64,000 bases of DNA from Tragulus kanchil. Its lineage: Eukaryota; Chordata; Mammalia; Artiodactyla; Tragulidae. This document shows positions 1-64,000 of the stretch, piece by piece. Every line of letters begins with the position of its first letter. The stretch's first letter is position 1. A model generated the notes under the pieces. The model had not been told where the DNA came from and did not search any database. It saw only the letters and a list, made by a program, of their open reading frames with translations. The position numbers and the translations under genes are program-made. The stretch spans positions 40,161,874-40,225,873 of the forward strand of contig JAIOJX010000003.1 of the NCBI GenBank assembly GCA_022376925.1, in the 5' to 3' direction.

Positions 1-1390
1 GAGAGTACGACTCACAAACACAGAGGCTGTCAGATCAACTCCCACTGCCACCACCTGGCAAGGTTCTGACGTTTTTCTCTTGAGTTTGGGCTGGAATAGG
101 GTAAATATTCCTATTTTTTCCCCTGTGAACAGACCATTATTTTCCTTGTCCTTCTGAAAAGGGAATAGGATTTTCTTGGATGTTTTTACATCTGTGCTTG
201 GGGGGTGGCGGATGGGTTGGGAGTAAAACAACAACCATTTTCCCAAGTCCCGAGGAGATTAACAGCTGGGAAACAGAAAAGAGAAACAATATTTGGAGAG
301 GTGTGAGATCAAAGAAATATATATATGTAATTTTAGGATGGACAATATGAACTTATGTGAATAAATGGAAATGATCCATTAGAGACTAATGATACTATAC
401 AACAGAATGGAGGACAATTGAGTGAGCAAACTGAGTAAGAAAGAGCAGTAAAGAAGTTGCCTCTAGTAGGAATAGGGCCACCAGAGAAGAGAAAGCTATG
501 CGAACAGATACAAGCGGATTTGGGGGTTTAGTGGGACGATGAGATTGTTTTCATCTGACTGCATCTATTTTACTGATTGCAAGATGATGTCACCCAGTGG
601 TGGGAGAAGAGGAGAGGATTAAAGTTATGAGATGAAAGGGTGTATTAGTTTCGTAGGAGTGCATGAACATGCTGGATTATTCACGTTTGCTTGTCACTGC
701 ATTACTCTGTGTCTGCCAATATCAGATGATCCCGAGTGTCATGGGTTTAGAGGTTTCGAACCTCAAACCTTGGGCTTCTCCACATACTTTGTCCCCTCTT
801 CCATGAACACTGCCCACCTCAAGAGACCTGTGGTGGCTTAAAGAACAGTCCACAAATTCTCCACTTGCCTCTCCCTCTAGAGACAGAGCTTAATCCCTTC
901 CCCCTGAGATGGGCTGGTTTTAGTGACTTTTTTCTATTGAGTATCAAAAGGCAGAAGTGATGAAATAACACTTTCAAGATACACTTGTACAAGGACGTCA
1001 CATGGGCCACTGACTCACTGCCTCATAGAAGATCCATGAGGTGGAACTCCAGCTCTCCTTCACACAGCTGACCACTTTCCAGTGGAAGGAGAGTACGACT
1101 CACAAACACAGAGGCTGTCAGATCAACTCCCACTGCCACCACCTGGCAAGGTTCTGACGTTTTTCTCTTGAGTTTGGGCTGGAATAGGGTAAATATTCCT
1201 ATTTTTTCCCCTGTGAACAGACCATTATTTTCCTTGTCCTTCTGAAAAGGGAATAGGATTTTCTTGGATGTTTTTACATCTGTGCTTGAGGGTGGCGATG
1301 GGTTGGTAGCTTCTGAGGCACTCCCCGGGAGGTATGGGAAGAATAACCCAGAGAGGCAACAACCACCATGTTGTTTCCCAAGTCCCGAGG
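1..1390. repeat. Direct duplication 1 (offset 1088)
   Basis: Positions 1-255 match 1089-1390. The first 200 bases align without a gap to 1089-1288. Towards its end the first copy gains and loses bases and lacks about 47 bases present in the second copy, then switches to unrelated sequence at 256. The match already runs at base 1, so the duplicated block probably extends upstream of the window. Confidence 0.93.
620..1088. other. Non-coding stretch, possible old repeat
   Basis: No convincing reading frame. The part around 885-1060, with a run resembling 'gggctggttttagtgact', looks like a common ancient mammalian interspersed repeat, but I cannot name the family. The stretch 256-620 shows nothing recognisable. 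Confidence 0.3.
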
Positions 1391-1802
1391 TCCTAGGCAG
1401 TCAATCTCCTCTCCACATTCAGAGACTTCCTCTGTTTGCTGTCGTATGTCAAGGGTATTTTGTTGTTTCTGTTATAAAGGGGAGGAGCTGGGAGGAATGG
1501 GGCTACTTCACTGTGGAGGAACTGAAAGTCTAGTTTTTTGTCTTGATCAATATCCTAAGTTTTGATGGAGGAAACACAAGATTTCAGGTTTAAGACTGCA
1601 AAGGATGGACTGAGAGTGTTGCTAAGTGCAAATGCCAATGAAGAGTTAATTTGAAAGCTTTCCCCTCTATCCGTGTTCTGCTTACAGTGGTCCACAGGTT
1701 TTTGAGTCCCAATCGTATTTTGCCTATAAGCTCTGTTACTTTTTAGGCACTTTTTGTAGGTTACAAAGGTTTTTCTGGAGCATTTACATGATGTTAGAGC
1801 AG
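1391..1802. other. No recognisable feature
   Basis: Unique-looking AT-moderate DNA between the first duplication and a SINE fragment. Short open frames here lack any recognisable domain. Confidence 0.4.
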
Positions 1803-1897
1803 TCATTGGAGAAGGAAATGGCAACCCACTCCAGTATTCTTGCCTGGAAAATTCCATGGATGGAGAAACCTGGTAAGCTACAGTCCATGGGATCTCA
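1803..1897 (+). mobile_element. Bov-tA/Bov-A2 SINE fragment
   Basis: Carries the ruminant SINE body 'ggcaacccactccagtattc' followed by 'cttgcctgg' and 'ctacagtccatggg'. The tRNA-like head is missing, so this is a 5'-truncated copy. A second, more complete SINE follows about 30 bp downstream in the same orientation. Confidence 0.85.
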
Positions 1898-1925
1898 AAC
1901 ATAGATATTTATATATGTATATATA

Positions 1926-2143
1926 GGTCTTCCCTGATGGTTCATCGGTAAGGAATCTGCCTGCAGTGCAGGAGACCTAGGTTCCATCCCTGGGTTGGGA
2001 AGATCCCCCTGGAATAGGGCATGGTAACCCGCTCCAGTATTCTTGACTGGAGAAGTCCCTGGCTGGAGAAGTCTGGTGGGCTGCAGTCCATGGAGGTCGC
2101 ACAGAGTCAGACACGACTGAAGTGACTAAGCAGCAGCAGCAGC
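1926..2143 (+). mobile_element. Bov-tA/Bov-A2 SINE, near complete
   Basis: Starts with the tRNA-derived head ('cttccctgatggttcatcgg', then a degenerate B-box-like 'ggttccatccctgg'), continues through the body 'ctccagtattcttgactgg' and ends in 'agtcagacacgactgaagtg' plus a short AGC-repeat tail (about 2129-2143). Confidence 0.93.
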
Positions 2144-2850
2144 ACAGAACAGACATACCTATATTCTGTTATCTGAATTTGTAAAGTATTTGTCTTCAAC
2201 AGGTAAATTCACCATTTTTCTTTCTTAGCATAGCTATTTTAATTATCTGTTATGTATAATTAGTTTGATTTCCTCCAACAAGATCTCTTTCGGGTAAGAA
2301 TGTCTGTCATAAGATCTATTCCACTGTGGTCTATATACTAGTCAGGGTGTCACTTGAAAATGCTCCCTCACAAAGGACAATGTGTTGTCCTATTCCTGTC
2401 CATGAAGTACAGTTGAACACTTTATATATTTTACTTAGCACATAATCACATTATCTTTATTTTAAAGACCTTCATGACAATAACTAGTTCAATGGACAGT
2501 GCAGATAAAATACTCCCAAATTCAGTATTTTCTTTCTTCCACAAATGGCTATATTTTTTTTTCATATCACACCACAGTTATGCTTGAGTCAATATAGCAG
2601 AAACCCATGCCTATATAATAAACATGTATTTCATTTCCTCCTTCTTGGTTGGATGAGGTAAGTATTTAGTCCATTCTGAGAAGATGGTCTTGAGGGCCCC
2701 CTAATCACCACATGTTCTTTTGTTTTTAAGCACCTAATCCTTTGTCCAATTTTATTAAAATAAAACTAGGTCTTTTCATAAGGTAGCACATTTGATCTCC
2801 AGTTGGTGCATTTATCAAATGTCTTTTATCAATACAGTCCTTTATATATA
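2144..2850. other. No recognisable feature
   Basis: AT-rich single-copy-looking DNA with no reading frame of note and no repeat that I recognise. Confidence 0.4.
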
Positions 2851-3010
2851 CAAAATATTTTCTCTTCTCCTTTTATCTTGACCTCCTCAATAGAAAAATG
2901 GTTATATTTTTTAATTAGCATTTTTCAAATGAGGAAATGGAATTTCAGTGAAGTTAAATCACATGTCCAAACTCCACATCAAATAAATTGTGGTATCAGG
3001 AATTAAACAA
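2850..3010 (-). mobile_element. MIR SINE remnant
   Basis: Contains the diverged MIR core in reverse orientation: 'tttcaaatgaggaaatgg' and 'agtgaagttaaatcacatg', corresponding to the usual gaggaaactgaggc and ttaagtaacttgcccaagg blocks. Highly diverged, as expected for an element older than the ruminant radiation. Confidence 0.55.
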
Positions 3011-3315
3011 GGGCTTCTTAATATCCTTATAGATTAATTCAACAGCAGGAAAGACTATCTTTTACATGTGAGCTAACTCAGGCCTGACACTTTAGGCTAT
3101 ATGCTGAAATCATCTCAGGGATGGTGCTCATTCTTTATTTTATGCAAAAAAAAATACTCCTCCACCTCTAACAATCTGTCTCTCATCATCTTCACTTGTG
3201 TTTCACATGCCTGAGTTTGCTATTTAGGGAATCATCAGAGTATTATTCCAAATGGAGGGAAATCAGATAAAACCCAGTGTTCCTGGCTACAGTCTGTGTA
3301 ATTATGAACACAATA

Positions 3316-5541
3316 CTGTACATACAGTAGGATACCAGAGTGAATAGAGGCGGCTACCTTTGAAAGGATGAGCATTCGTTCTGACCTAATAACTTTCTAA
3401 CACTGGTACAATTATCTTTCTTCAAGTGGCACATTATTATTTGACACATTAAAATTTCTCTCTGAAAGGCAGGTTGGGAGTCTCATACAAACTGGAGGCT
3501 TCATGAATTATCCATGTCATAAGCTGCAGCACTGATATACCTTTTCCAAAATAAAAGCAACCCAGTCTCATCGTCTATTTCCAGTTACCACAGGCCAATC
3601 CATGCCACTCTGTGACCCTGAGAGCTTTCTTCCTATATCTTGGCATTTCTGATAAACATCAGCCATGGTCCACGGACTACCACTATGAAAGCGTTCCTCC
3701 TCATAGGCAAACCACAAAGACGTATCTTTGGTAGCAGGAACATTCTTTACGACATAGCTTTTGCCTTGGGATTATTGCACCAGAATGGTAGGTCTCCTTT
3801 TCCTGTGTCTGTTCAACCTTAGTTCCACTTTCCAGGAAGGGCTCTTTAGATGGAGAAATGTTACCAGGGCAAAAAGACCCCAGCCGGCCCCAAACATTCA
3901 AGTCTGGATGACCTTCTATCACTGCATCTGCCACACAACCGCCTTCGAAGCTGATGGGCTGGCGGCCCTGGGTTTGCCTCTGGGCCTGTCATCTGTCCTG
4001 TTGTTAGACCACTGACGGGCTGTCGCTGCCTTCCTGGAAACTCACAGCTCCCTCTTCTAAGTTTAGCTGCCACTGGATGATAAAAATCATGCCGCCTTGC
4101 AGCCCTTCATTTTCCTCTAGATCCCAGTGGTTGATTCCATCTGGAAGCAGAAAACACAACCTTCCCATTGTCCTCCCAAATACATGGGGTGTGCATATTC
4201 CACAACAAATTACCATTTTGAGGAAAAAAAAACGAAATTAGAATGCACTTGATGTTCTGTGCTTTGCTACTAGTGAATGCCACACCGCCCCGAAGACCCA
4301 TCTCCCTCTTTGGTTTTAATTGGGTTCTTTCTGTGGCTTTCATATCATTTTGCACCTGACTGACATATATTGCTGCTGATTACCAAGTGAGTTGTTCAGT
4401 GAGCTGGAGGTATGATAAATTAAACATGCTGTACATACAGTAGGATACCAGAGTGAATAGAGGCGGCTACCTTTGAAAGGATGAGCATTCGTTCTGACCT
4501 AATAACTTTCTAACACTGGTACAATTATCTTTCTTCAAGTGGCACATTATTATTTGACACATTAAAATTTCTCTCTGAAAGGCAGGTTGGGAGTCTCATA
4601 CAAACTGGAGGCTTCATGAATTATCCATGTCATAAGCTGCAGCACTGATATACCTTTTCCAAAATAAAAGCAACCCAGTCTCATCGTCTATTTCCAGTTA
4701 CCACAGGCCAATCCATGCCACTCTGTGACCCTGAGAGCTTTCTTCCTATATCTTGGCATTTCTGATAAACATCAGCCATGGTCCACGGACTACCACTATG
4801 AAAGCGTTCCTCCTCATAGGCAAACCACAAAGACGTATCTTTGGTAGCAGGAACATTCTTTACGACATAGCTTTTGCCTTGGGATTATTGCACCAGAATG
4901 GTAGGTCTCCTTTTCCTGTGTCTGTTCAACCTTAGTTCCACTTTCCAGGAAGGGCTCTTTAGATGGAGAAATGTTACCAGGGCAAAAAGACCCCAGCCGG
5001 CCCCAAACATTCAAGTCTGGATGACCTTCTATCACTGCATCTGCCACACAACCGCCTTCGAAGCTGATGGGCTGGCGGCCCTGGGTTTGCCTCTGGGCCT
5101 GTCATCTGTCCTGTTGTTAGACCACTGACGGGCTGTCGCTGCCTTCCTGGAAACTCACAGCTCCCTCTTCTAAGTTTAGCTGCCACTGGATGATAAAAAT
5201 CATGCCGCCTTGCAGCCCTTCATTTTCCTCTAGATCCCAGTGGTTGATTCCATCTGGAAGCAGAAAACACAACCTTCCCATTGTCCTCCCAAATACATGG
5301 GGTGTGCATATTCCACAACAAATTACCATTTTGAGGAAAAAAAAACGAAATTAGAATGCACTTGATGTTCTGTGCTTTGCTACTAGTGAATGCCACACCG
5401 CCCCGAAGACCCATCTCCCTCTTTGGTTTTAATTGGGTTCTTTCTGTGGCTTTCATATCATTTTGCACCTGACTGACATATATTGCTGCTGATTACCAAG
5501 TGAGTTGTTCAGTGAGCTGGAGGTATGATAAATTAAACATG
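3316..5541. repeat. Direct duplication 2 (1113-bp unit)
   Basis: 3316-4428 is followed at once by an apparently identical copy at 4429-5541. Even the nine-A run near 4225 and 5338 has the same length. All small open frames in the first unit recur exactly 1113 bases later, including 60-, 77-, 84-, 70- and 82-residue frames, so they are not a gene family. Content is single-copy-looking non-coding DNA. Confidence 0.97.
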
Positions 5542-6408
5542 CTATGTATCACTGCATCCATCTTTGACTGCTTCATGGTACATTATAATTTGGGAAGGCA
5601 CTATTAAAATAAAATATTAAAGAATAAGCAGAAGCAGCCCACTGTTAACATGTCCGATGGCAAGAGAAAATTACAGGTTTCATTGTATATGCGGCACCAT
5701 CTGCCTCTTCACTGAGGCTGAGCCTTCGGCTCTCCCAGGGGAAATCGCTGTGGATAAGTTATTCAATTAGAACAGCATTATTGGCCAGCTACCTTGGAGA
5801 ATTGGGTTGATGATGTTGTGATTATCCTGCTCTGCATTCCTTCATGTCTCTGGCAGGCTGCAGTGCATGGAAACTTCCTCAAGTGTTTACTGAGCCCTAC
5901 AGTAGAGGTGAACAATTGGAATGAAGAATATCAAGGATTCCTGAAAGAAAATCAATTTTGAATGAACTTTTCTTGCTTAGCTACAGCTCCAATATTCTGA
6001 ATCATACTGTATTTTGGTGAACTTTCACTGGAGTAAGCGATAGAAACAGCACTAGAGAGGGAAGTGAATTTCATGATATGTATTCAACCTGTGGCACTGC
6101 ACAAAATAATTCTTCACTTGAGATTACAAGAGAAATACTCTGGTGCCCTCACATATGATATTAATCTTAGGGATTGGAAAAATCTCATAGGCACATAAGG
6201 CTTTTTTAATAAAGACTTTAATGATCCTTCAAGAACATTTGTTCTATCTGAAGTAATAATTATTTATGAGTCAGTCTCTGCAAAGAGGTCAGGACCCTTC
6301 CTTCACAGATTAAGCCATTCAGCCAGCTTCCCAAATGGGAGATTGTTGGGGGTATTTATCATTATCTTTAGATCTGTGGTTTACAACTGAAGATCCTATC
6401 CAAATAGA
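5542..6408. other. No recognisable feature
   Basis: Unique-looking DNA with no domain-bearing frame and no repeat that I recognise. Confidence 0.4.
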
Positions 6409-6443
6409 ATATATATATATATATATTATATGTATATATAGCT

Positions 6444-6503
<60 letters not shown>

Positions 6504-6513: not shown

Positions 6514-7410
6514 GTGAATGAAATATCAGAAAGAGAAATCAAGGATGCAATCTCATCACCACTTTTGATAGAAAGATTAACTGCTGTTCTTAGAATAGTT
6601 ACAAGCTGAAATTATATCTCCCAATTCCCCAAAACATGAATTCTTTGACACTTCCTGAGCAAAAGAATGAGAAAGGCAGACAGAATTTTTCTGCTTGGCC
6701 ATTACACAAATTCTATCCTGATCATGATAGGTCTCCACGGTATATATATTTGATCAGTGAAACTTGTATATGACCATATAGATCATTTATTTAGTCTAGC
6801 AATTTTTTATGGTAAAAAAAATTGGATACAAAACATTAGATTATTGCCCACACTTCTGATTAACTTGCCCTTTGAGCTGTGTTACAGCAACATGACTTGC
6901 TAGTTAATAAATAAATGCCTACACATTGCTGAACAACTAAACCATTATGGAAATTTAATTGATTATTTGTAAATTATTTATATATTAGCACAAATTTTGG
7001 CACATATTAATCACTTAGCAATATTTCTTGATTTGTTGATTTCAATTTGCAGAAGAAAAATAAAATCCTCTTTATGAGTTTCAGATAAAGGACAATAATC
7101 ATGCTCTTTGTTTTCACTTTGCTCAGTGTGGAAACCAGTATGACATTACTATCTTTTTACCAAATGTTCTTACAGGGAAATTTCCTTTGAAAAGTCCTAA
7201 GTATTTTCTATATTCAGAAAACATGTATCTTACCATTAATGTAGAATCTATAGCATGTTCATTACTCTTTATTGTTTATAGAGATGCTTCCGTTAATAAT
7301 GCCACTATGTAAACATGCTAATGAGCAGAAAAGATCAAGATATGATGGTAATTTTTTGGCAAAGAGCATTGCCTAAATCTGAAAAGCAAATAATATGAGA
7401 ATGTACATGC

Positions 7411-7623
7411 ATGCTAAGTCACTTCAGTCATGTTTGATTCTTTGCAACCCTATGGACTGTAATCTGCCACTCCTCTCTCCATGGAATTTTTCAAGCAAAA
7501 ATACTGGAGTTGGTTACTTTCCCTCCTCCAGGGTGTCTTCCCCACCCAGGGATTGAATATGTGTCTCTTATGTCCCCTGCATAGGCAAACAGGTTCCTTA
7601 CAAGGAGTACCACCTGGGAAGCC
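7411..7623 (-). mobile_element. Bov-tA/Bov-A2 SINE
   Basis: Reverse-oriented SINE: 'aagtcacttcagtcatg' at the 3' side, 'ctccatggaatttttcaagc' in the body, and 'accacctgggaagcc' as the complement of the tRNA-like head. Open frames across it on both strands are typical SINE shadow frames. Confidence 0.92.
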
Positions 7624-7865
7624 TAATATGAGAACACTTAAAGTCTTTTTGAGATTACAAAATATGAATGAATTCTGTGAGATAGTGAATAAACAGATCT
7701 TTAAAGATGTCATCTTAAACTCAGTTAACTCTCCAGTAAATTCTCATTCAATACTATCTTCAACATAGCTTGAATTCTGAAGGGTAACACATGTATCATT
7801 ACACCCTCACTAATTACATACTTTACAGAATGACACAAGACCTTTTACTAGACTCTAAGAAACTC

Positions 7866-7945
7866 CTCTGGCTTCCTCCTCAGTGCTAAACCATCCACCT
7901 GCCAATGCAGAAGGTGTAGGTTCAATCCCTGGATGCCGGAGCAAA
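7866..7945 (+). mobile_element. SINE head cut by duplication junction
   Basis: tRNA-like head 'tggcttcctcctcagtgc' and 'ggttcaatccctggatg' are present, but the body is lost at the junction near 7937-7950. The intact versions are at 8992-9195 and 10085-10288. Confidence 0.85.
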
Positions 7946-8536
7946 TGTCATACAAAACATTAGATTATTGCCCACACTTCTGATTAACTTGCCCTTTGAG
8001 CTGTGTTACAGCAACATGACTTGCTAGTTAATAAATAAATGCCTACACATTGCTGAACAACTAAACCATTATGGAAATTTAATTGATTATTTGTAAATTA
8101 TTTATATATTAGCACAAATTTTGGCACATATTAATCACTTAGCAATATTTCTTGATTTGTTGATTTCAATTTGCAGAAGAAAAAAATAAAATCCTCTTTA
8201 TGAGTTTCAGATAAAGGACAATAATCATGCTCTTTGTTTTCACTTTGCTCAGTGTGGAAACCAGTATGACATTACTATCTTTTTACCAAATGTTCTTACA
8301 GGGAAATTTCCTTTGAAAAGTCCTAAGTATTTTCTATATTCAGAAAACATGTATCTTACCATTAACGTAGAATCTATAGCATGTTCATTACTCTTTATTG
8401 TTTATAGAGATGCTTCCGTTAATAATGCCACTATGTAAACATGCTAATGAGCAGAAAAGATCAAGATATGATGGTAATTTTTTGGCAAAGAGCATTGCCT
8501 AAATCTGAAAAGCAAATAATATGAGAATGTACATGC

Positions 8537-8749
8537 ATGCTAAGTCACTTCAGTCATGTTTGATTCTTTGCAACCCTATGGACTGTAATCTGCCACTCCT
8601 CTCTCCATGGAATTTTTCAAGCAAAAATACTGGAGTTGGTTACTTTCCCTCCTCCAGGGTGTCTTCCCCACCCAGGGATTGAATATGTGTCTCTTATGTC
8701 CCCTGCATAGGCAAACAGGTTCCTTACAAGGAGTACCACCTGGGAAGCC
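8537..8749 (-). mobile_element. Bov-tA/Bov-A2 SINE, duplicate copy
   Basis: The same insertion as 7411-7623, displaced by 1126 bases in duplication 3. I see no base difference. Confidence 0.92.
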
Positions 8750-8991
8750 TAATATGAGAACACTTAAAGTCTTTTTGAGATTACAAAATATGAATGAATT
8801 CTGTGAGATAGTGAATAAACAGATCTTTAAAGATGTCATCTTAAACTCAGTTAACTCTCCAGTAAATTCTCATTCAATACTATCTTCAACATAGCTTGAA
8901 TTCTGAAGGGTAACACATGTATCATTACACCCTCACTAATTACATACTTTACAGAATGACACAAGACCTTTTACTAGACTCTAAGAAACTC

Positions 8992-9195
8992 CTCTGGCTT
9001 CCTCCTCAGTGCTAAACCATCCACCTGCCAATGCAGAAGGTGTAGGTTCAATCCCTGGATCAGGGAGATGCCCTGGAGAAGCAAATGTCAACCTACTCTA
9101 GTATTCTTATCTGGGAAATCCCATGGACAGAGGAGCCTGGTGGGCTATATTCTATGGGGTCACAAAAAAGTCTGACATGACTAATCGACCAGACA
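8992..9195 (+). mobile_element. Bov-tA/Bov-A2 SINE, complete
   Basis: Head 'ggttcaatccctggatcagg', body with 'ctctagtattcttatctgg', then 'agcctggtgggctatattc' and a terminal 'gtctgacatgactaa'. This is the unbroken form of the truncated copy at 7866. Confidence 0.92.
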
Positions 9196-9355
9196 ATAGC
9201 AACAATAAACTCAACACAGTAATATTATGAGTTATATAGTATTATAAGAGTTGGACACAGCTTAGTGACTAAACAACATAGTATTATCTTTATTGCAAAA
9301 CTAAGAAAGGTAAGTTAACAGAGCCCACAAATGTGGGAATTAGTTTTGGATCATT

Positions 9356-9420
9356 TGTATATATTTATATATTAATATACAATATATGCACATATACAAT
9401 ACACACAGAATGATGTGTGT
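9356..9420. repeat. TA/TG-rich low-complexity tract
   Basis: Irregular TATA and ACAC sequence without a clean repeat unit. It recurs at about 10449-10513 through duplication 4. Confidence 0.6.
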
Positions 9421-10084
9421 GTCCACATACTTGTATTTTAAGAAAAACAAGAAAATGAAGAATAGACATTAAAATTTAGGAAAAAAACCCCTGATATCTA
9501 CAGGATAGAATATTGGAATAGAGCTAAGAGGGTAGAAATAAAGGCTAAATTTCAGGGCATATGCTTTGCTTATCGTCCCTATATCTTACACACCGATTTC
9601 TGTGTTCAGTCTAAATTATTTTTGTACCTTGACAGCAGAGACTATATCCATTTGAACTATGTGTTTGTGGTGGCATGAATAGTATGGCCATTTAAGGGCA
9701 CAATCGTATGAGGATTGTCTATAATTATTTTAGGATGAACACTCAAAGCTCCTTCATAGAATTTGATTGTGGTCTGATATCTTTGGGAATCAGTTAGACA
9801 GCCAACTAAAAATCCTTCATTATTGATTAAGGGCCACCAATTGAATAGTGTCATCTTAAACTCAGTTAACTTCTTCCAAAATATGAATGAATTCTGTGAG
9901 ATAGTGAATAAACAGATCTTTAAAGATGTCATCTTAAACTCAGTTAACTCTCCAGTAAATTCTCATTCAATACTATCTTCAACATAGCTTGAATTCTGAA
10001 GGGTAACACATGTATCATTACACCCTCACTAATTACATACTTTACAGAATGACACAAGACCTTTTACTAGACTCTAAGAAACTC

Positions 10085-10288
10085 CTCTGGCTTCCTCCTC
10101 AGTGCTAAACCATCCACCTGCCAATGCAGAAGGTGTAGGTTCAATCCCTGGATCAGGGAGATGCCCTGGAGAAGCAAATGTCAACCTACTCTAGTATTCT
10201 TATCTGGGAAATCCCATGGACAGAGGAGCCTGGTGGGCTATATTCTATGGGGTCACAAAAAAGTCTGACATGACTAATCGACCAGACA
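10085..10288 (+). mobile_element. Bov-tA/Bov-A2 SINE, duplicate copy
   Basis: The same insertion as 8992-9195, displaced by 1093 bases in duplication 4. Confidence 0.92.
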
Positions 10289-10887
10289 ATAGCAACAATA
10301 AACTCAACACAGTAATATTATGAGTTATATAGTATTATAAGAGTTGGACACAGCTTAGTGACTAAACAACATAGTATTATCTTTATTGCAAAACTAAGAA
10401 AGGTAAGTTAACAGAGCCCACAAATGTGGGAATTAGTTTTGGATCATTTGTATATATTTATATATTAATATACAATATATGCACATATACAATACACACA
10501 GAATGATGTGTGTGTCCACATACTTGTATTTTAAGAAAAACAAGAAAATGAAGAATAGACATTAAAATTTAGGAAAAAAACCCCTGATATCTACAGGATA
10601 GAATATTGGAATAGAGCTAAGAGGGTAGAAATAAAGGCTAAATTTCAGGGCATATGCTTTGCTTATCGTCCCTATATCTTACACACCGATTTCTGTGTTC
10701 AGTCTAAATTATTTTTGTACCTTGACAGCAGAGACTATATCCATTTGAACTATGTGTTTGTGGTGGCATGAATAGTATGGCCATTTAAGGGCACAATCGT
10801 ATGAGGATTGTCTATAATTATTTTAGGATGAACACTCAAAGCTCCTTCATAGAATTTGATTGTGGTCTGATATCTTTGGGAATCAGT

Positions 10888-18647: not shown

Positions 18648-18669
18648 ACAAAAATATCTTTATCTGTTC

Positions 18670-49929: not shown

Positions 49930-49967
<38 letters not shown>

Positions 49968-51800: not shown

Positions 51801-51811
51801 TACCCAAATAA

Positions 51812-52900
51812 CTAAATGGGACATGTATAATTGTGGCAGTCGCATAAATCGGAGTGGACATTTTCACATCGTGTGAGCTGCAAAACTATAAAGCAACAAG
51901 TTCTGGACAAAAATCAGCTTTTCTATTTCCTCAGGGATGCAGTGACATATGAATTTCAGGCAATTCAGAAAAAAAATAAGATTACCAGCTTTCTAGGTGT
52001 GATGTAGTTTTTCACAGCTCAACAAGCAAACACGGTCTTAAAGAAAAAAACTGGCTTCTCTCTGGAAGATTGCTACATTATTTATAGTCTCTGAAACAAG
52101 GATGATTTTCTCTTTTATGTTGGTGTGTTTTAAATTTTGTGGCACTTTGAGCATGACCCAAGTTTCTTCTGTTATGTGAGTTTCTTTTTACTCTTGGCGA
52201 TCATTTCCTGGTCTGGGAATCCCATGGCTGTTTTGAATCACAAGAGTTTAATCAAAGGAGCTGGTCACAATACAGTAAAAGTGTAAATGGTCCTGAGCTT
52301 CTACAACCTATCCAGAGAACTTTTAAGACAAATGGAAGGTTCTTGATTTAGTCATGAAAGCTGAGCTTCCTCCACCCTTGGGTCTTCACTCTTGTACCCA
52401 GCCTGTCATTGAAGGAAGGGGCTTGCCTTTACCTTCACTGTGGAATGGTCATGCACCTTCATTAATACATGCTGTAGCCACCAGAAAAGCAGATATGGGT
52501 ATACTCTTCTTAAGAACATTTTAATTCTCTTGAGGGACTCCCAAAAGATGCTTCGTTTTACTTTCAGGTGTTTAAAACAGCCTATTCTAATCTTAATCCC
52601 ATCACCTTGCTACTAAATTACTAGCTTTTTCAGGATCCTCAATATAACTTATTCTAAGAGATCCACTAGATATCCAAGCTAATAAGACTCTTATTACTGA
52701 GGGTAGCTCTTCCTAATTTCACAGTGCCATAAATATTAACTTCTCAAAACTTACAGCCTACTGTACCAGTAAAAGCCAACTTTGTGCCTCTCACCCTTTT
52801 CACTTTTTCATTTCCTTTTCTAAAATAGTCTTGTAGATTAAAACGCCTTTTGTTCCTTCAGTAATTATATTCCACTGCATGAGACTTAGAATGAACTCCT
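51812..52900. other. No recognisable feature
   Basis: Non-coding DNA present twice (again at 53010-54100). No domain or repeat recognised. Confidence 0.35.
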
Positions 52901-52903
52901 TTC

Positions 52904-52998
52904 TGTTGTTTGGTCTTAAGTCATGTCTAACTCTTTGTAGTCTTATGGACTGTAGCCTGCCCTCAAGCTCCTCTGTCCATGGAATTTTTCAGGCAAGA
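52904..52998 (-). mobile_element. SINE fragment cut by junction
   Basis: 'cttaagtcatgtctaactct' and 'ctccatggaattttt'-type sequence, ending at the junction. Less truncated copies are at 54102 and 55221. Confidence 0.85.
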
Positions 52999-54101
52999 TA
53001 CCCAAATAACTAAATGGGACATGTATAATTGTGGCAGTCGCATAAATCGGAGTGGACATTTTCACATCGTGTGAGCTGCAAAACTATAAAGCAACAAGTT
53101 CTGGACAAAAATCAGCTTTTCTATTTCCTCAGGGATGCAGTGACATATGAATTTCAGGCAATTCAGAAAAAAAATAAGATTACCAGCTTTCTAGGTGTGA
53201 TGTAGTTTTTCACAGCTCAACAAGCAAACACGGTCTTAAAGAAAAAAACTGGCTTCTCTCTGGAAGATTGCTACATTATTTATAGTCTCTGAAACAAGGA
53301 TGATTTTCTCTTTTATGTTGGTGTGTTTTAAATTTTGTGGCACTTTGAGCATGACCCAAGTTTCTTCTGTTATGTGAGTTTCTTTTTACTCTTGGCGATC
53401 ATTTCCTGGTCTGGGAATCCCATGGCTGTTTTGAATCACAAGAGTTTAATCAAAGGAGCTGGTCACAATACAGTAAAAGTGTAAATGGTCCTGAGCTTCT
53501 ACAACCTATCCAGAGAACTTTTAAGACAAATGGAAGGTTCTTGATTTAGTCATGAAAGCTGAGCTTCCTCCACCCTTGGGTCTTCACTCTTGTACCCAGC
53601 CTGTCATTGAAGGAAGGGGCTTGCCTTTACCTTCACTGTGGAATGGTCATGCACCTTCATTAATACATGCTGTAGCCACCAGAAAAGCAGATATGGGTAT
53701 ACTCTTCTTAAGAACATTTTAATTCTCTTGAGGACTCCCAAAAGATGCTTCGTTTTACTTTCAGGTGTTTAAAACAGCCTATTCTAATCTTAATCCCATC
53801 ACCTTGCTACTAAATTACTAGCTTTTCAGGATACTCAATATAACTTATTCTAAGAGATCCACTAGATATCCAAGCTAATAAGACTCTTATTACTGAGGGT
53901 AGCTCTTCCTAATTTCACAGTGCCATAAATATTAACTTCTCAAAACTTACAGCCTACTGTACCAGTAAAAGCCAACTTTGTGCCTCTCACCCTTTTCACT
54001 TTTTCATTTCCTTTTCTAAAATAGTCTTGTAGATTAAAACGCCTTTTGTTCCTTCAGTAATTATATTCCACTGCATGAGACTTAGAATGAACTCCTTTCT
54101 G

Positions 54102-54222
54102 TTGTTTGGTCTTAAGTCATGTCTAACTCTTTGTAGTCTTATGGACTGTAGCCTGCCCTCAAGCTCCTCTGTCCATGGAATTTTTCAGGCAAGATACTGG
54201 AGTGGATTTCCACTGTGGCAAA
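54102..54222 (-). mobile_element. Bov-tA SINE, truncated
   Basis: 'gtcttaagtcatgtctaact', 'ctgtagcctgccctcaagct' and 'aagatactggagtgg'. The tRNA-like head is missing. Confidence 0.87.
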
Positions 54223-54376
54223 GTAAGGCCTCTTGGAGTTCCATTGGACCCTATCTCTGGATTCTGCTCTGACCTCACTCCCATCTACATCATACTCTTT
54301 CATACCCTCTCACAACTTTTCTCCAGCATCTTTTGTTTCTCCCCACTTATCTGTTTTATTTCCTGTTCTTCATCTT

Positions 54377-54458
54377 TGTTGTTGTTGTTTAGTCACTAAG
54401 TCATGTCTGACTCTTTGTGACACCATAGACTGCAGAATGCCAGGCTGCCATCTACCTC
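54377..54458 (-). mobile_element. Bov-tA SINE 3' fragment
   Basis: A GTT-repeat tail, then 'gtcactaagtcatgtctgac' and 'cagaatgccaggctgccatc'. Only the 3' third is present. Confidence 0.85.
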
Positions 54459-54532
54459 AAGTAGGTATGGCTTTTTCTCCCTCCAATTCTCTCATCAGAA
54501 TCACAGTGTTTTCCTTCTGCAGGTGCCATGCT

Positions 54533-54753
54533 AGGCAAGTGCCTGCTCAGTCATGTCCCACTCTTTGTGACTCTAAGAACTGTAGGAACTCCAAGCTCCT
54601 CTGTCCATGGGATTTTCCCCACAAAATTACTGGAGTGGGTTGCCATTTCCTACTCCCAGAGGATCTTCTTTATCCAGGGATCAAACCCATGTCTCCTGAG
54701 TCTCCTGCATTGACAGGCAGATTCTTTACCACTGAGCCACCTGGGAAGCCCCT
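54533..54753 (-). mobile_element. Bov-tA/Bov-A2 SINE
   Basis: 'tgctcagtcatgtcccactc', 'actggagtgggttgccattt' and 'tgagccacctgggaagcccc'. The 190-residue frame at 54233-54805 is built mainly from this and the preceding SINE. Confidence 0.94.
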
Positions 54754-55220
54754 CCTCTATACATTAAGAGAGATTTCTATAGTTATATCCTTTTTCTGTA
54801 TGTGAGTCTGTGTGTATGCATGCATATGGGTGTATATCTTAGTTCAGTCATCATAGATTGGGCACCTTAAGCACCTGTTACAGGTGTTTAAAACAGCCTA
54901 TTCTAATCTTAATCCCATCACCTTGCTACTAAATTACTAGCTTTTCAGGATCCTCAATATAACTTATTCTAAGAGATCCACTAGATATCCAAGCTAATAA
55001 GACTCTTATTACTGAGGGTAGCTCTTCCTAATTTCACAGTGCCATAAATATTAACTTCTCAAAACTTACAGCCTACTGTACCAGTAAAAGCCAACTTTGT
55101 GCCTCTCACCCTTTTCACTTTTTCATTTCCTTTTCTAAAATAGTCTTGTAGATTAAAACGCCTTTTGTTCCTTCAGTAATTATATTCCACTGCATGAGAC
55201 TTAGAATGAACTCCTTTCTG

Positions 55221-55341
55221 TTGTTTGGTCTTAAGTCATGTCTAACTCTTTGTAGTCTTATGGACTGTAGCCTGCCCTCAAGCTCCTCTGTCCATGGAAT
55301 TTTTCAGGCAAGATACTGGAGTGGATTTCCACTGTGGCAAA
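55221..55341 (-). mobile_element. Bov-tA SINE, truncated, duplicate copy
   Basis: The same element as 54102-54222. Confidence 0.87.
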
Positions 55342-55495
55342 GTAAGGCCTCTTGGAGTTCCATTGGACCCTATCTCTGGATTCTGCTCTGACCTCACTCC
55401 CATCTACATCATACTCTTTCATACCCTCTCACAACTTTTCTCCAGCATCTTTTGTTTCTCCCCACTTATCTGTTTTATTTCCTGTTCTTCATCTT

Positions 55496-55577
55496 TGTTG
55501 TTGTTGTTTAGTCACTAAGTCATGTCTGACTCTTTGTGACACCATAGACTGCAGAATGCCAGGCTGCCATCTACCTC
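55496..55577 (-). mobile_element. Bov-tA SINE 3' fragment, duplicate copy
   Basis: The same element as 54377-54458. Confidence 0.85.
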
Positions 55578-55651
55578 AAGTAGGTATGGCTTTTTCTCCC
55601 GCCATTGCTCTCATCAGAATCACAGTGTTTTCCTTCTGCAGGTGCCATGCT

Positions 55652-55872
55652 AGGCAAGTGCCTGCTCAGTCATGTCCCACTCTTTGTGACTCTAAGAACT
55701 GTAGGAACTCCAAGCTCCTCTGTCCATGGGATTTTCCCCACAAAATTACTGGAGTGGGTTGCCATTTCCTACTCCCAGAGGATCTTCTTTATCCAGGGAT
55801 CAAACCCATGTCTCCTGAGTCTCCTGCATTGACAGGCAGATTCTTTACCACTGAGCCACCTGGGAAGCCCCT
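55652..55872 (-). mobile_element. Bov-tA/Bov-A2 SINE, duplicate copy
   Basis: The same element as 54533-54753. Confidence 0.94.
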
Positions 55873-56041
55873 CCTCTATACATTAAGAGAGATTTCTATA
55901 GTTATATCCTTTTTCTGTATGTGAGTCTGTGTGTATGCATGCATATGGGTGTATATCTTAGTTCAGTCATCATAGATTGGGCACCTTAAGCACCTGTTTT
56001 TCAAGCTGGGAAGTTTATGATCAAGGTAGCGCTAAATTTGA

Positions 56042-56120
56042 TAGGGAAGCCTGGTGTGCTGCAGTTCATGGGGTTGGAAATAGTCGGACACGACTGAGTG
56101 ACTGAACTGAATGAACTGAG
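56042..56120 (+). mobile_element. BovB/Bov-tA 3' tail
   Basis: 'gggaagcctggtgtgctgca', 'agtcggacacgactgagtga' and an ACTGA-type repeat tail typical of BovB-related 3' ends. Confidence 0.85.
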
Positions 56121-56124
56121 ACTC

Positions 56125-56330
56125 TGCTTCCTGGTTCACAGACAGCTGGCATTAGGTGTCAATGGAGATCTCTTCTGACCCTTTAATAAGGACAGTAACC
56201 CAATTCATGACGACTCTGCCCTCATGACTTAATCACCTCTCAGTGGCCCAGCTCATAACACCATTATATTGAGGATTAGCCTTTCAACACATAAATTTGG
56301 AGATTTACATTCAGTCCATAGCAGTGCAGG
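56125..56330. mobile_element. Ancient interspersed repeat
   Basis: 'catgacttaatcacctctca', 'aacaccattatattgaggat' and 'acattcagtccatagcagtg' share the block order of the element at 41755-42145. The BovB tail at 56042 seems to be inserted in it. Confidence 0.55.
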
Positions 56331-56419
56331 CCTTCATGTGTGATGGACATAAGTGAGAAGTAGAGATAGTGATGGTGGTGGTCAATGAGGCAGAAATCTA
56401 CTGCATGGGTTTTAATTTT

Positions 56420-56685
56420 TGGGGGGCGTCTTTTATTGGTCCTTCATTTATTTATTTTCATCCATCTTAATTCTTTGGCACGTGTGGGCCTCCCATAGAG
56501 GTGGCCTCTCTGGTTACAGAGAAACAGCTCTGGGCTCATGTGCTCCAGAGCACTGGCTCTTACTTGGACACACTTGTCCAGCCACTCTACAGCATATGGG
56601 ATCTTCCCATGCCAGGGATCAAACCAGTGCCCCTTGCATTGCAAGGTAGACTCTTTACCCACTGGACCAGCGGGGAAGCCCCTTA
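56420..56685 (-). mobile_element. CHR-2-type SINE
   Basis: Reverse-oriented: 'gtccttcatttatttatttt', 'catccatcttaattctttgg', 'atgtgctccagagcactggc' and 'ggaccagcggggaagcccc'. Same long subtype as 26736 and 48550. Confidence 0.9.
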
Positions 56686-57020
56686 CTGCGTGGTTTTTAT
56701 AAGTGAGATTGTTTAAATGTTCTCACCAAAAGGAATCCAATAGACTTAAGTCAGCACAAAATAATGAAGAGGGAGTCCTTTCAGATTTAAATCAATTCTT
56801 TAAATACTTAATGTGTATTTGCCTTTTCAGGGCTTTTAAATACAGAATATTTTGGATTATATAAACTACATAATTTATTCAAGTGATGATTACTTAGTGT
56901 TTTTTTGTAAACTTCCTATTATCTTGCTCCCCTTTGTTATTTTCTGTTCATTTGGGTAGCAGCATTCCCTACCTGATCTGTCATGTACATTTTCAATGAA
57001 GATCCCTGAGGTCATTACCA
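56686..57020. other. No recognisable feature
   Basis: AT-rich DNA, repeated at 57822-58156. Confidence 0.35.
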
Positions 57021-57177
57021 ATCGGGACTGAACTATAGTTATATCCTTTTTCTGTATGTGAGTCTGTGTGTATGCATGCATATGGGTGTATATCTTAGTT
57101 CAGTCATCATAGATTGGGCACCTTAAGCACCTGTTTTCAAGATGGGAAGTTTATGATCAAGGTAGCGCTAAATTTGA

Positions 57178-57256
57178 TAGGGAAGCCTGGTGTGCTGCAG
57201 TTCATGGGGTTGGAAATAGTCGGACACGACTGAGTGACTGAACTGAATGAACTGAG
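57178..57256 (+). mobile_element. BovB/Bov-tA 3' tail, duplicate copy
   Basis: The same element as 56042-56120. Confidence 0.85.
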
Positions 57257-57260
57257 ACTC

Positions 57261-57466
57261 TGCTTCCTGGTTCACAGACAGCTGGCATTAGGTGTCAATG
57301 GAGATCTCTTCTGACCCTTTAATAAGGACAGTAACCCAATTCATGACGACTCTGCCCTCATGACTTAATCACCTCTCAGTGGCCCAGCTCATAACACCAT
57401 TATATTGAGGATTAGCCTTTCAACACATAAATTTGGAGATTTACATTCAGTCCATAGCAGTGCAGG
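57261..57466. mobile_element. Ancient interspersed repeat, duplicate copy
   Basis: The same element as 56125-56330. Confidence 0.55.
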
Positions 57467-57555
57467 CCTTCATGTGTGATGGACATAAGTGAGAAGTAGA
57501 GATAGTGATGGTGGTGGTCAATGAGGCAGAAATCTACTGCAGGGGTTTTAATTTT

Positions 57556-57821
57556 TGGGGGGCGTCTTTTATTGGTCCTTCATTTATTTATTTTCATCCA
57601 TCTTAATTCTTTGGCACGTGTGGGCCTCCCATAGAGGTGGCCTCTCTGGTTACAGAGAAACAGCTCTGGGCTCATGTGCTCCAGAGCACTGGCTCTTACT
57701 TGGACACACTTGTCCAGCCACTCTACAGCATATGGGATCTTCCCATGCCAGGGATCAAACCAGTGCCCCTTGCATTGCAAGGTAGACTCTTTACCCACTG
57801 GACCAGCGGGGAAGCCCCTTA
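57556..57821 (-). mobile_element. CHR-2-type SINE, duplicate copy
   Basis: The same element as 56420-56685. Confidence 0.9.
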
Positions 57822-58156
57822 CTGCGTGGTTTTTATAAGTGAGATTGTTTAAATGTTCTCACCAAAAGGAATCCAATAGACTTAAGTCAGCACAAAATAA
57901 TGAAGAGGGAGTCCTTTCAGATTTAAATCAATTCTTTAAATACTTAATGTGTATTTGCCTTTTCAGGGCTTTTAAATACAGAATATTTTGGATTATATAA
58001 ACTACATAATTTATTCAAGTGATGATTACTTAGTGTTTTTTTGTAAACTTCCTATTATCTTGCTCCCCTTTGTTATTTTCTGTTCATTTGGGTAGCAGCA
58101 TTCCCTACCTGATCTGTCATGTACATTTTCAATGAAGATCCCTGAGGTCATTACCA

Positions 58157-58870: not shown

Positions 58871-59236
58871 TCTGATTAGTATATTTATGGTCTTTGCATA
58901 TTTTTGTGAAGTAACAGCACAATGACTTTATGACTTGGTAAGCATATGACAGATATCACTATGAATGAATTTTCTACCATAGAAGCTTGCCAAATATAAC
59001 AATTATGAAAGTTAGAAGTTAGGAGAAATTGAGTGGAGTTTGAGAAGTAAATGGGAATTTTGTTGCTGAGGTTGTTCTTCTGACACAGGTCTGTAAGTTT
59101 GCTTCATGAATATTCAGTGGGGACTGCAGCTTCTAGTTTTATTTCAACTCTGGGTGGACTTTTTCTATCACAAGATTGGCTAAGCTGGAAGAGAAAAGAA
59201 TAAACTTAGCTGTCAAATATCTGAGTAGCCAATCAA

Positions 59237-59451
59237 GTGCTTGCTTGCTCAGTTGTGTCCAAATCTTTATGACCCCACGATCTGTAGCCCACAAGGTTCC
59301 TCTGTCCATGGAATTTTCCAAGCAGAAATACTGGAATGAGTTGGTACTTCCTATGCCTTGGGATCTTCTTGACCCAAGGAACGAACTCAGGTCTCTTGAG
59401 TCTTGCACATGGCAGGTGGATTCTTTACCACTAGCACCACCTGGAAAGCTC
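59237..59451 (-). mobile_element. Bov-tA/Bov-A2 SINE
   Basis: 'tgcttgctcagttgtgtcca', 'ctccatgg'-type body with 'agcagaaatactggaatgag', and 'accacctggaaagctc'. Confidence 0.92.
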
Positions 59452-59956
59452 AATCAAAGCACAAGTCAAAAATGAAAGAGTAAGCCTTTCATCACTTACT
59501 ATGAATGTTATAAGTAGAAGTTTAATACCTGAAGAAACATTGTCCCATTTTCCCACATGGGATAACACCTTGGTCCAGGCTCAGATGTAACAACATAAAT
59601 GTGAAGTTCATCGCCATGAACAAGCCTCCAAAAGTTTTATGGACTCTGGAATCATGGGGATAGCTTAAAGGAAAAAGCAGAAGTGGGAAAAGGAGTGTGT
59701 AATGAGTCAGAGTGGGAAAAATTATATTCAGGGTTCCTCTTTCCTCGTCCCGTAAGAAGACCTAGCATAGGCACCTGAAGAAGACTGTGTGACTCAAGGT
59801 GTCAGATAAAGAAATCTCAGAATGAATGCACTTGGGCTGGGAATAAAAATGCATGAGAGAGCATGACTGGCCAGAAAGATCTGAGCTCTTAACTGCAACT
59901 CCCTTCTGATACTGTAATGCACTGGCCATGCACCAGTCTGGTGTAGGGAGAGCAGT
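59452..59956. other. No recognisable feature
   Basis: Unique-looking DNA, repeated at 60552-61056. Confidence 0.35.
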
Positions 59957-60336
59957 GACAAAATTTTTTTTCTGATTAGTATATTTATGGTCTTTGCATA
60001 TTTTTGTGAAGTAACAGCACAATGACTTTATGACTTGGTAAGCATATGACAGATATCACTATGAATGAATTTTCTACCATAGAAGCTTGCCAAATATAAC
60101 AATTATGAAAGTTAGAAGTTAGGAGAAATTGAGTGGAGTTTGAGAAGTAAATGGGAATTTTGTTGCTGAGGTTGTTCTTCTGACACAGGTCTGTAAGTTT
60201 GCTTCATGAATATTCAGTGGGGACTGCAGCTTCTAGTTTTATTTCAACTCTGGGTGGACTTTTTCTATCACAAGATTGGCTAAGCTGGAAGAGAAAAGAA
60301 TAAACTTAGCTGTCAAATATCTGAGTAGCCAATCAA

Positions 60337-60551
60337 GTGCTTGCTTGCTCAGTTGTGTCCAAATCTTTATGACCCCACGATCTGTAGCCCACAAGGTTCC
60401 TCTGTCCATGGAATTTTCCAAGCAGAAATACTGGAATGAGTTGGTACTTCCTATGCCTTGGGATCTTCTTGACCCAAGGAACGAACTCAGGTCTCTTGAG
60501 TCTTGCACATGGCAGGTGGATTCTTTACCACTAGCACCACCTGGAAAGCTC
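60337..60551 (-). mobile_element. Bov-tA/Bov-A2 SINE, duplicate copy
   Basis: The same element as 59237-59451. Confidence 0.92.
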
Positions 60552-61056
60552 AATCAAAGCACAAGTCAAAAATGAAAGAGTAAGCCTTTCATCACTTACT
60601 ATGAATGTTATAAGTAGAAGTTTAATACCTGAAGAAACATTGTCCCATTTTCCCACATGGGATAACACCTTGGTCCAGGCTCAGATGTAACAACATAAAT
60701 GTGAAGTTCATCGCCATGAACAAGCCTCCAAAAGTTTTATGGACTCTGGAATCATGGGGATAGCTTAAAGGAAAAAGCAGAAGTGGGAAAAGGAGTGTGT
60801 AATGAGTCAGAGTGGGAAAAATTATATTCAGGGTTCCTCTTTCCTCGTCCCGTAAGAAGACCTAGCATAGGCACCTGAAGAAGACTGTGTGACTCAAGGT
60901 GTCAGATAAAGAAATCTCAGAATGAATGCACTTGGGCTGGGAATAAAAATGCATGAGAGAGCATGACTGGCCAGAAAGATCTGAGCTCTTAACTGCAACT
61001 CCCTTCTGATACTGTAATGCACTGGCCATGCACCAGTCTGGTGTAGGGAGAGCAGT

Positions 61057-61885: not shown

Positions 61886-62027
61886 CTTCACATTATACTC
61901 AATTGTTTAATCATAGCTTTTGCTTCCCTTCCTTAGTTCTGAGAGTACCATGTGAGTTGTTATGTCAATTACTGAGTGTAAGTGATGAGAAAGATACAGG
62001 AGAAGAAGAGATAAAGGTATTTGTAAT
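61886..62027. other. No recognisable feature
   Basis: Short unique stretch before the last duplication. Confidence 0.3.
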
Positions 62028-62322
62028 CCAGGTTTTGAGCAGCATAAAGGTTGTGTTCCAAAATTCAGGTTATAAGGACTCTCTGGTGATCTTGAGATGA
62101 TGGTTAGAGACTGGATTAGCTGAAATTGCCTGATGATAGCACTAGTGACCTGACTAGATGCTCTAAACAAAGGATATAACAATATGTCTATTTGTAAACC
62201 AAAATGAAAATACACTAACCTACAAGATAAATCCAATGAAATCAAACAATATTTTTTCTATATTTACATTTGTATGCTTTTAAAAAAAGACAACATTAAA
62301 TGCAAAATTCTTCAGGAAAAAG

Positions 62323-62516
62323 GGAACTTCCCTGGTGACTTAGATAGAGAAGAATTTACCTGCAATGCAGGAGGATCTACCTTCTATCCCTGGGTTAGGA
62401 AGATCCTCTGAAAAAGTGAATGGCAACCCATTCCAATATTACTCTCATCTGTAGAATTCTATGGAAAGAGGAACATACTGGGCTACAGTCCATGGGGTCA
62501 CAAAAAGTCAGATACA
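62323..62516 (+). mobile_element. Bov-tA/Bov-A2 SINE, 3' end replaced
   Basis: 'aacttccctggtgacttaga', 'atggcaacccattccaatat' and 'ctacagtccatggggtcaca' are SINE. The usual ending breaks off at 'agtcagatac' and L1 3' sequence follows directly. Confidence 0.88.
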
Positions 62517-62600
62517 CTAATCTGGGAACATACATATCTGTAAACAACAAAACTCTGTAAAAGTTAAAAGTAAAATAAAAGTTTAAAAATAAAATAAAAT
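62516..62600 (+). mobile_element. L1 3' terminal fragment fused to SINE
   Basis: 'ctaatctgggaacatacata', 'aacaacaaaactctgtaaaa' and an A-rich tail match the last ~60 bases of the L1 ending at 27432 and, in reverse, 14385-14440. Confidence 0.78.
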
Positions 62601-62923
62601 GGAAACAAACAAACAAAAAGATACAACTGCGTGACTAAATACCTTAGATAAAAAATGGCTTTGCTTTGATGATATACGGGCATTTGCTTAGCCTTTTTAA
62701 TTGGAAATTTAACCAAGGAAAGGCCTAGATCCTTTCTGCTGACTTTTATTTTCCCACACTTCACTACAGCTGCTATGCTTAAAAGTTCACTGTGCAAAAC
62801 TTCAGTGAAATTCTGATTCCAGACAACCCCAAGCAATTGACTTCTTTCCACTTATCCCACTAAATGCAAATATTAATTCCTGAAAGAACTCTAGCAACCC
62901 TCTGAGGACTCTGAAAAGTAGAT

Positions 62924-63104
62924 GATAGCAGATACCCTCATATTCCAAACCAAGAAGCAAGAAAGGGAACTTGTGTATCGATATCACAGCAAAAGGTCCG
63001 ACTACAAAGAGGCATTATGGGTATGGGGGAGTCAAACTATTTTTTATCCTGATTGTAATGTAGTTCCATTAATCTATGTAAGTATTAAAGTAAAAAAAAA
63101 TTTT
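62924..63104. other. Unique stretch between the last two copies
   Basis: Nothing recognised. Confidence 0.3.
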
Positions 63105-63399
63105 CCAGGTTTTGGGCAGCATAAAGGTTGTGTTCCAAAATTCAGGTTATAAGGACTCTCTGGTGATCTTGAGATGATGGTTAGAGACTGGATTAGCTGA
63201 AATTGCCTGATGATAGCACTAGTGACCTGACTAGATGCTCTAAACAAAGGATATAACAATATGTCTATTTGTAAACCAAAATGAAAATACACTAACCTAC
63301 AAGATAAATCCAATGAAATCAAACAATATTTTTTCTATATTTACATTTGTATGCTTTTAAAAAAAGACAACATTAAATGCAAAATTCTTCAGGAAAAAG

Positions 63400-63677
63400 G
63401 GAACTTCCCTGGTGACTTAGATAGAGAAGAATTTACCTGCAATGCAGGAGGATCTACCTTCTATCCCTGGGTTAGGAAGATCCTCTGAAAAAGTGAATGG
63501 CAACCCATTCCAATATTACTCTCATCTGTAGAATTCTATGGAAAGAGGAACATACTGGGCTACAGTCCATGGGGTCACAAAAAGTCAGATACACTAATCT
63601 GGGAACATACATATCTGTAAACAACAAAACTCTGTAAAAGTTAAAAGTAAAATAAAAGTTTAAAAATAAAATAAAAT
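63400..63677 (+). mobile_element. SINE/L1 fusion, duplicate copy
   Basis: The same composite as 62323-62600, displaced by 1077 bases. Confidence 0.87.
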
Positions 63678-64000
63678 GGAAACAAACAAACAAAAAGATA
63701 CAACTGCGTGACTAAATACCTTAGATAAAAAATGGCTTTGCTTTGATGATATACGGGCATTTGCTTAGCCTTTTTAATTGGAAATTTAACCAAGGAAAGG
63801 CCTAGATCCTTTCTGCTGACTTTTATTTTCCCACACTTCACTACAGCTGCTATGCTTAAAAGTTCACTGTGCAAAACTTCAGTGAAATTCTGATTCCAGA
63901 CAACCCCAAGCAATTGACTTCTTTCCACTTATCCCACTAAATGCAAATATTAATTCCTGAAAGAACTCTAGCAACCCTCTGAGGACTCTGAAAAGTAGAT

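Follow-up and report, generated by a model that had tools for sequence, protein, structure and literature searches.

Twenty direct duplications of about 1.1 kb in a Tragulus kanchil contig are very probably unmerged assembly overlaps

A 64,000-nucleotide stretch of contig JAIOJX010000003.1 in the Tragulus kanchil assembly GCA_022376925.1 (positions 40,161,874 to 40,225,873 of the forward strand; hereafter the window) carries 20 direct pairs of near-identical segments about 1.1 kb long. Judged from the sequence, these pairs are almost certainly unmerged assembly overlaps of some kind and not real duplications, and each of the 20 places most likely holds a single copy in the genome. The window would then be a chain of consensus blocks of about 1.9-6 kb, in which the last ~1.1 kb of each block represents the same stretch of the genome as the first ~1.1 kb of the next, the ends having been pasted together instead of overlapped. 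A preliminary description of this DNA had proposed unmerged ~1-kb overlaps from a noisy long-read assembly or gap-filling step. Its overlap reading is supported by the spacing of the junctions, by the bases inserted at them, four of nine such inserts continuing the flank of the other copy, and by the differences in the copies that open a block, where a single stretch dominates. Of the two steps that it named, failure to merge overlaps during assembly is favoured, and gap-filling appears less likely, because overlaps of constant size and a lower limit to block length would not be expected from it.

By self-BLASTN of the window at an E cut-off of 1e-10, we detected 20 direct pairs whose copies are 98.2-100% identical; no chance model was run for the repeats themselves, since kilobase matches above 98% identity need none. 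The two copies are offset by 1046-1198 bases, with a mean of 1109 and a standard deviation of 35 (n=20). The 20 left-copy starts given in the preliminary description were recovered with shifts of 0-5 bases; the upper bound of its offset range (1044-1198) was confirmed, and the lower one was measured as 1046. Its estimate of about 22 kb redundant sequence out of 64 kb agrees with the summed offsets, 22,179 bases. The window contains no N. The window start cuts through pair 1, leaving the final 223 bases of the left copy inside and placing the junction near 223/224, while pair 20 is cut by the window end; the apparent gaps of 865 bases in pair 1 and 180 bases in pair 20 are effects of this clipping and not real. 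Both pairs were kept for offsets, blocks and simulation, with the junction of pair 1 set to 224, and were excluded from difference counts, leaving 18 complete pairs (2-19).

In all 18 complete pairs the copies lie head to tail, the left copy ending between 6 bases past the start of the right copy and 79 bases short of it. One to six bases are shared at the joint in six junctions, two are flush and the remaining ten hold 8-79 extra bases. Successive pairs overlap at seven places, each time a right copy with the following left copy, which leaves stretches of 95-440 bases in three copies. The pairs are as follows, with the copies named left and right by position.

Pair 1, 1-1309: left copy 1-223, right partner 1089-1309, offset 1088; junction at about 223/224, clipped by the window start.
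Pair 2, 3313-5543: left 3313-4430, right 4426-5543, offset 1113; 5-base overlap at the junction.
Pair 3, 6826-9060: left 6826-7934, right 7950-9060, offset 1124; 15-base junction insert, 10 bases of which match 9080-9089 beyond the right copy.
Pair 4, 8781-10887: left 8781-9794, right 9874-10887, offset 1093; 79-base insert, part of it a noisy match to 8668-8696 before the left copy.
Pair 5, 11870-14054: left 11870-12947, right 12976-14054, offset 1106; 28-base insert.
Pair 6, 16114-18258: left 16114-17179, right 17188-18258, offset 1074; 8-base insert.
Pair 7, 17965-20179: left 17965-19063, right 19077-20179, offset 1112; 13-base insert.
Pair 8, 21147-23358, within a LINE-1 element: left 21147-22239, right 22252-23358, offset 1105; left copy departs from the right at 22192.
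Pair 9, 26637-28836: left 26637-27745, right 27743-28836, offset 1106.
Pair 10, 28523-30879: left 28523-29701, right 29702-30879, offset 1179.
Pair 11, 31658-33823: left 31658-32740, right 32741-33823, offset 1083; 100% identical.
Pair 12, 33716-35831: left 33716-34756, right 34791-35831, offset 1075; 100% identical, 34-base insert a noisy match to 35860-35889 beyond the right copy.
Pair 13, 39680-41909: left 39680-40794, right 40794-41909, offset 1114.
Pair 14, 43898-45993: left 43898-44949, right 44944-45993, offset 1046.
Pair 15, 45899-48119: left 45899-46985, right 47029-48119, offset 1130; 43-base insert a noisy match to 45868-45894 before the left copy, start of the right copy rich in differences.
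Pair 16, 51801-54197: left 51801-53001, right 52999-54197, offset 1198.
Pair 17, 53759-55998: left 53759-54879, right 54878-55998, offset 1119.
Pair 18, 55896-58156: left 55896-57020, right 57033-58156, offset 1137; 12-base insert.
Pair 19, 58871-61056: left 58871-59956, right 59971-61056, offset 1100; 100% identical, 14-base insert.
Pair 20, 62027-64000: left from 62027, right from 63104, offset 1077; clipped by the window end.

The end of one piece being the start of the next is thus seen in every complete pair, and a real tandem duplication would show the same arrangement. Because the two resemble each other at first sight, further tests were made. The first concerns the positions of the junctions. 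With the start of the right copy taken as the junction, the blocks are 1879-6003 bases long; the closest two junctions lie 1879 bases apart, and no duplicated unit spans another junction. A real tandem array, in which some later units should span earlier junctions and the spacing should have no floor, is not what the window presents. Among 200,000 simulated histories of random tandem duplication, 1.2% had no unit spanning an older junction, and none also kept all spacings at or above 1879 bases, a floor that was taken from the data and makes this second figure descriptive.

The second test concerns the inserts. Where a pasted piece extends beyond the overlap, its extra bases should be a poor copy of the sequence beyond the overlap on the other piece, or the reverse. 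Nine inserts of at least 12 bases were available among the complete pairs, and by local alignment four of them match, noisily, the flank beyond the other copy (uncorrected P of 0.006 for pair 3, 0.029 for pair 4, 0.002 for pair 12 and 0.015 for pair 15). The alignments for pairs 4, 12 and 15 contain several small insertions or deletions (indels), as expected of raw long reads. Set beside the flanks of all 17 remaining complete pairs, the pair's own flank gave the best score for pairs 3, 4 and 12; for pair 15 its score was reached once. For these nine inserts, permuting flanks among pairs gave a total as high as the observed one in 202 of 100,000 trials. Taken jointly, the ragged tails at the junctions resemble the sequence of the other piece.

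The third test uses the seven three-copy stretches, where copy 1 closes one block, copy 2 falls inside the next and copy 3 opens the following one. Among the 25 columns that differ, 23 are private to copy 3, with one each for copies 1 and 2, and 22 of the 23 fall within the first 45 columns of copy 3. Over the complete pairs, 15 of 18 show differences, amounting to 54 events (some of them ragged alignment ends), of which 31 are indels. Identity is 100% in three pairs (11, 12 and 19) and at least 99.5% in 13, and the interior of the copies disagrees in 51 of 17,653 columns (0.29%).

Pair 8 offers a yardstick from outside the window. Its right copy is collinear, without a gap, with residues 6-166 of the solved LINE-1-type endonuclease 2v0r, and chains named LINE-1 ORF2, such as 1vyb, also match it over residues 6-166. 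The left copy leaves the right copy at 22192, 48 bases before its own end, with several deletions; measured against the endonuclease, the block end is the faulty copy. The LINE-1 element itself occupies about 21700-26800 on the forward strand, its outer limits being approximate, with an ORF2 endonuclease frame at 22870-23427 and reverse transcriptase pieces at 23981-24772 and 24984-25697 in separate frames. It sits in an A-rich stretch, with an AT skew of 0.34 at 20-24 kb and 0.31 at 24-28 kb. A reading frame at 26591-26974 starts like the end of LINE-1 ORF2 and continues into sequence resembling a short interspersed element (SINE), which we take to be, perhaps, a SINE inserted in the 3' end of the LINE-1.

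A number of points weigh against reading the pairs as unmerged overlaps. The reading offers no explanation of why joins between near-identical ends should have failed. The lopsided three-copy differences owe much to one noisy stretch, in pair 15, which supplies 17 of the 23 columns private to copy 3; seven of the 23 lie in its first six columns, where the alignment is ragged, and outside both subsets three remain, against one and one for the other copies. Differences gather only modestly towards copy ends: after trimming, 7 of 26 difference clusters lie within 60 bases of an end (2.6 expected, P=0.011), and with wider trimming 5 of 24 (2.1 expected, P=0.057). Without trimming, 23 of the 54 events pile up there against 5.9 expected, and the trimmed figures are preferred because much of this excess consists of ragged alignment ends. 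As for the inserts, five of the nine had no flank match in the local test, which comprised 21 tests on 11 pairs with uncorrected P values (the 11 including pair 20, where clipping creates the apparent "insert" and P is 0.39, and pair 6, with its 8-base insert). Only the insert of pair 15 aligns near the expected place, and those of pairs 3, 4 and 12 require about 15, 70 and 24 missing bases. A strictly anchored form of the test gave P of at most 0.015 for pairs 7, 8 and 15 only, agreeing with the local form (P below 0.05 for pairs 3, 4, 12 and 15) on pair 15 alone.

As to which program step left the overlaps unmerged, we lean towards blocks that represent edges of the fuzzy Bruijn graph built by wtdbg or wtdbg2 (Redbean) from noisy long reads, with nodes of 1024 bases. 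In wtdbg2 a segment consists of four bins of 256 bases, and neighbouring nodes overlap by at most 256 bases, or one bin. Contigs are laid out as edges that each cover two neighbouring nodes; a consensus is called for every edge, and consecutive edges are then joined. Consecutive edges would therefore share one node, each with its own consensus, and a failed join would leave the shared node in the sequence twice, with ragged ends at the junction. The smallest advance from one start to the next should then be 768 bases (1024-256), and all advances would be expected to be multiples of 256. Published accounts describe Redbean as splitting reads into segments of 1024 bp, which serve as its vertices (PMC7730629), and the contigs from wtdbg2 as overlapping sequences of reads, whose consensus is made by a second program, wtpoa-cns (PMC9915519); the available portions of PMC6629541, PMC7483855 and PMC9915519 do not settle how edge consensuses are joined.

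We tested 18 start-to-start advances, leaving out the one after junction 1. The smallest are 760, 777 and 780 bases, and we count them as agreeing with a minimum of 768, the value of 760 being 8 bases under and within the noise of read indels. The advances are phase-locked to 256 bases with V=0.38 (P=0.011).

Several observations speak against wtdbg as the source, which moreover leans on the bin and edge layout just described. The phase-locking was tested after the clustering had been noticed, and a period near 200 fits slightly better than 256 for the 13 advances below 2500 bases and for the seven below 1100. The overlaps average 1109 bases, some 85 above the 1024-base node, an excess that needs either extension of the ends or a bias towards net deletion in the reads. 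Published assemblies made with the program are not swollen: human wtdbg2 assemblies averaged 2.81 Gb and were not inflated (PMC7483855), and duplicated Benchmarking Universal Single-Copy Orthologs (BUSCOs) came to 3.3% in a wtdbg2 mule deer assembly (PMC9650288) and 2.1% in an Ankole cattle assembly for which wtdbg2 was one of the programs used (PMC8854726). A fault of the program would therefore have to be local or special to one run. Redbean gave genome sizes exceeding the reference when simulated reads were mediocre and lower sizes when reads were of low quality; for real reads there was no difference (PMC7730629). The sika deer is a further ruminant assembled with wtdbg (PMC10372904); nothing links the window to the mule deer, Ankole or sika deer assemblies. 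Node-length duplications from wtdbg are not described in the available text of the literature matches listed, which does not show that they are absent from the literature.

Another step could have left the same trace, and we regard this as a possible though rather doubtful source, one that shares in the general conclusion of unmerged overlaps. A scaffolder or gap-filler may have joined short contigs with negative gaps, or a clone or contig tiling path with a 1-kb minimum overlap may have been concatenated. The inserts and lopsided differences at block ends would be expected here too, and precedents exist: unmerged overlapping bacterial artificial chromosomes (BACs) were conjectured behind false duplications in Btau 4.2 (PMC3411808), false duplications have been connected by incorrect gap filling (PMC9516828), and the scaffolder LRScaf is prone to artificial contig duplications (PMC8849508). 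Such an origin fits poorly with the lack of N, with the nearly constant overlap length and with the 1879-base floor on junction spacing, as overlaps at negative gaps should vary widely. We rejected a fixed-step polishing or chunking fault, given the range of block lengths.

That the two copies are the two alleles of heterozygous stretches set side by side (haplotype, or heterotype, false duplication) is very unlikely, even though this is a known cause of false duplication in cow and other vertebrates (PMC2864568, PMC9516828). Three of the 18 complete pairs are identical throughout and 13 reach at least 99.5%; more than half of the differences (31 of 54) are indels; and allelic divergence would set no 1.1-kb length.

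Still less probable are real, recent tandem duplications of a controlled length of ~1.1 kb at 20 sites. The copies are near-identical and head to tail, the 1-6 bases shared at 6 of the 18 complete junctions look like microhomology, and some forms of break repair insert bases copied from nearby sequence. Against this stand the absence of any unit containing another junction together with the spacing floor, a combination reached in 0 of 200,000 simulated histories; the four of nine inserts that continue the other copy's flank; and, with less weight because one stretch dominates, the lopsided counts (23, 1, 1) in the three-copy regions. Nor is any process known to us by which unrelated 1.1-kb segments would be duplicated every ~3 kb. 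An unknown process making real, fixed ~1.1-kb tandem duplications at unrelated sites every few kilobases of a mammalian genome is the least credible of all, with the spacing and the inserts strongly against it.

False duplications from unmerged overlaps are already known; what is unusual in the window is their constant length and their density, 20 in 64 kb. Three described kinds belong to the same class of error. In duplicated overlapping contigs (DOCs; Kelley and Salzberg 2010, PMC2864568), overlapping contig ends set side by side likewise yield a false direct duplication, but haplotype divergence is given as the cause of DOCs, which are found on separate contigs and rarely align above 99.5%, whereas the joins of the window are gapless and within one sequence, 13 of 18 complete pairs reach at least 99.5% and their length hardly varies. 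Homotype false duplications, a term of the Vertebrate Genomes Project (VGP), are under-collapsed sequence arising from read errors and not alleles, sometimes joined by unsupported sequence, as would be the case here; they are marked by low read depth over the copies and by discordant read pairs, and the available text mentions no fixed length for them (PMC9516828). The mis-assembled high-fidelity duplications of Btau 4.2 (Zimin et al. 2012, PMC3411808) are near-identical, come from a ruminant assembly and were conjectured to reflect failed merging of overlapping pieces, but exceed 5 kb and were conjectured to stem from overlapping BACs of different haplotypes. The wtdbg2 (Redbean) node resembles the window in another respect, its 1024-base vertices being close to the constant overlap size, which is ~85 bases longer; node-length duplications are not described in the portion of that source available (PMC7730629).

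With unmerged overlaps, about a third of the 64-kb stretch would be false sequence. Should the whole assembly be affected, genome size would be inflated, genes possibly broken and young duplications faked. The pattern offers a searchable fingerprint that could flag affected assemblies: direct repeats offset by ~1.05-1.2 kb, junctions at least ~1.88 kb apart, and short noisy inserts that continue the flank of the other copy. In a milder novel reading, the duplications would be an undescribed fingerprint of one assembler, for which public assemblies could be screened.

Lastly, we looked at how the duplicated sequences relate to one another. The preliminary description had stated that they have nothing in common. 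Repeats 150 bases or longer at 90% identity, or 400 bases or longer, were not found in the window at distances beyond 2.6 kb or in inverted orientation, and at this level the duplicated sequences are indeed unrelated; self-BLASTN also revealed diverged repeats (71-79%) common to neighbouring sequence. On the same search we rejected a long shared mobile element as the cause, the comparison covering repeats of these lengths, with short shared junction motifs not searched for. No Rfam match in the window reached the gathering score. In pair 9 the two copies disagree through several indels at 26991-27014, a C-rich stretch far from the ends of the overlap, perhaps owing to a consensus error. AT dinucleotide microsatellites are found at 6409-6485 and 49932-49991. 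SINE-like translations in the window make a ruminant origin of the DNA plausible. Within 54115-54645 and 55234-55764 lie two repeats of ~100 bases, 78% alike and 434 bases apart, a unit that pair 17 repeats again; the translation of the surrounding sequence resembles what we take to be ruminant SINEs.

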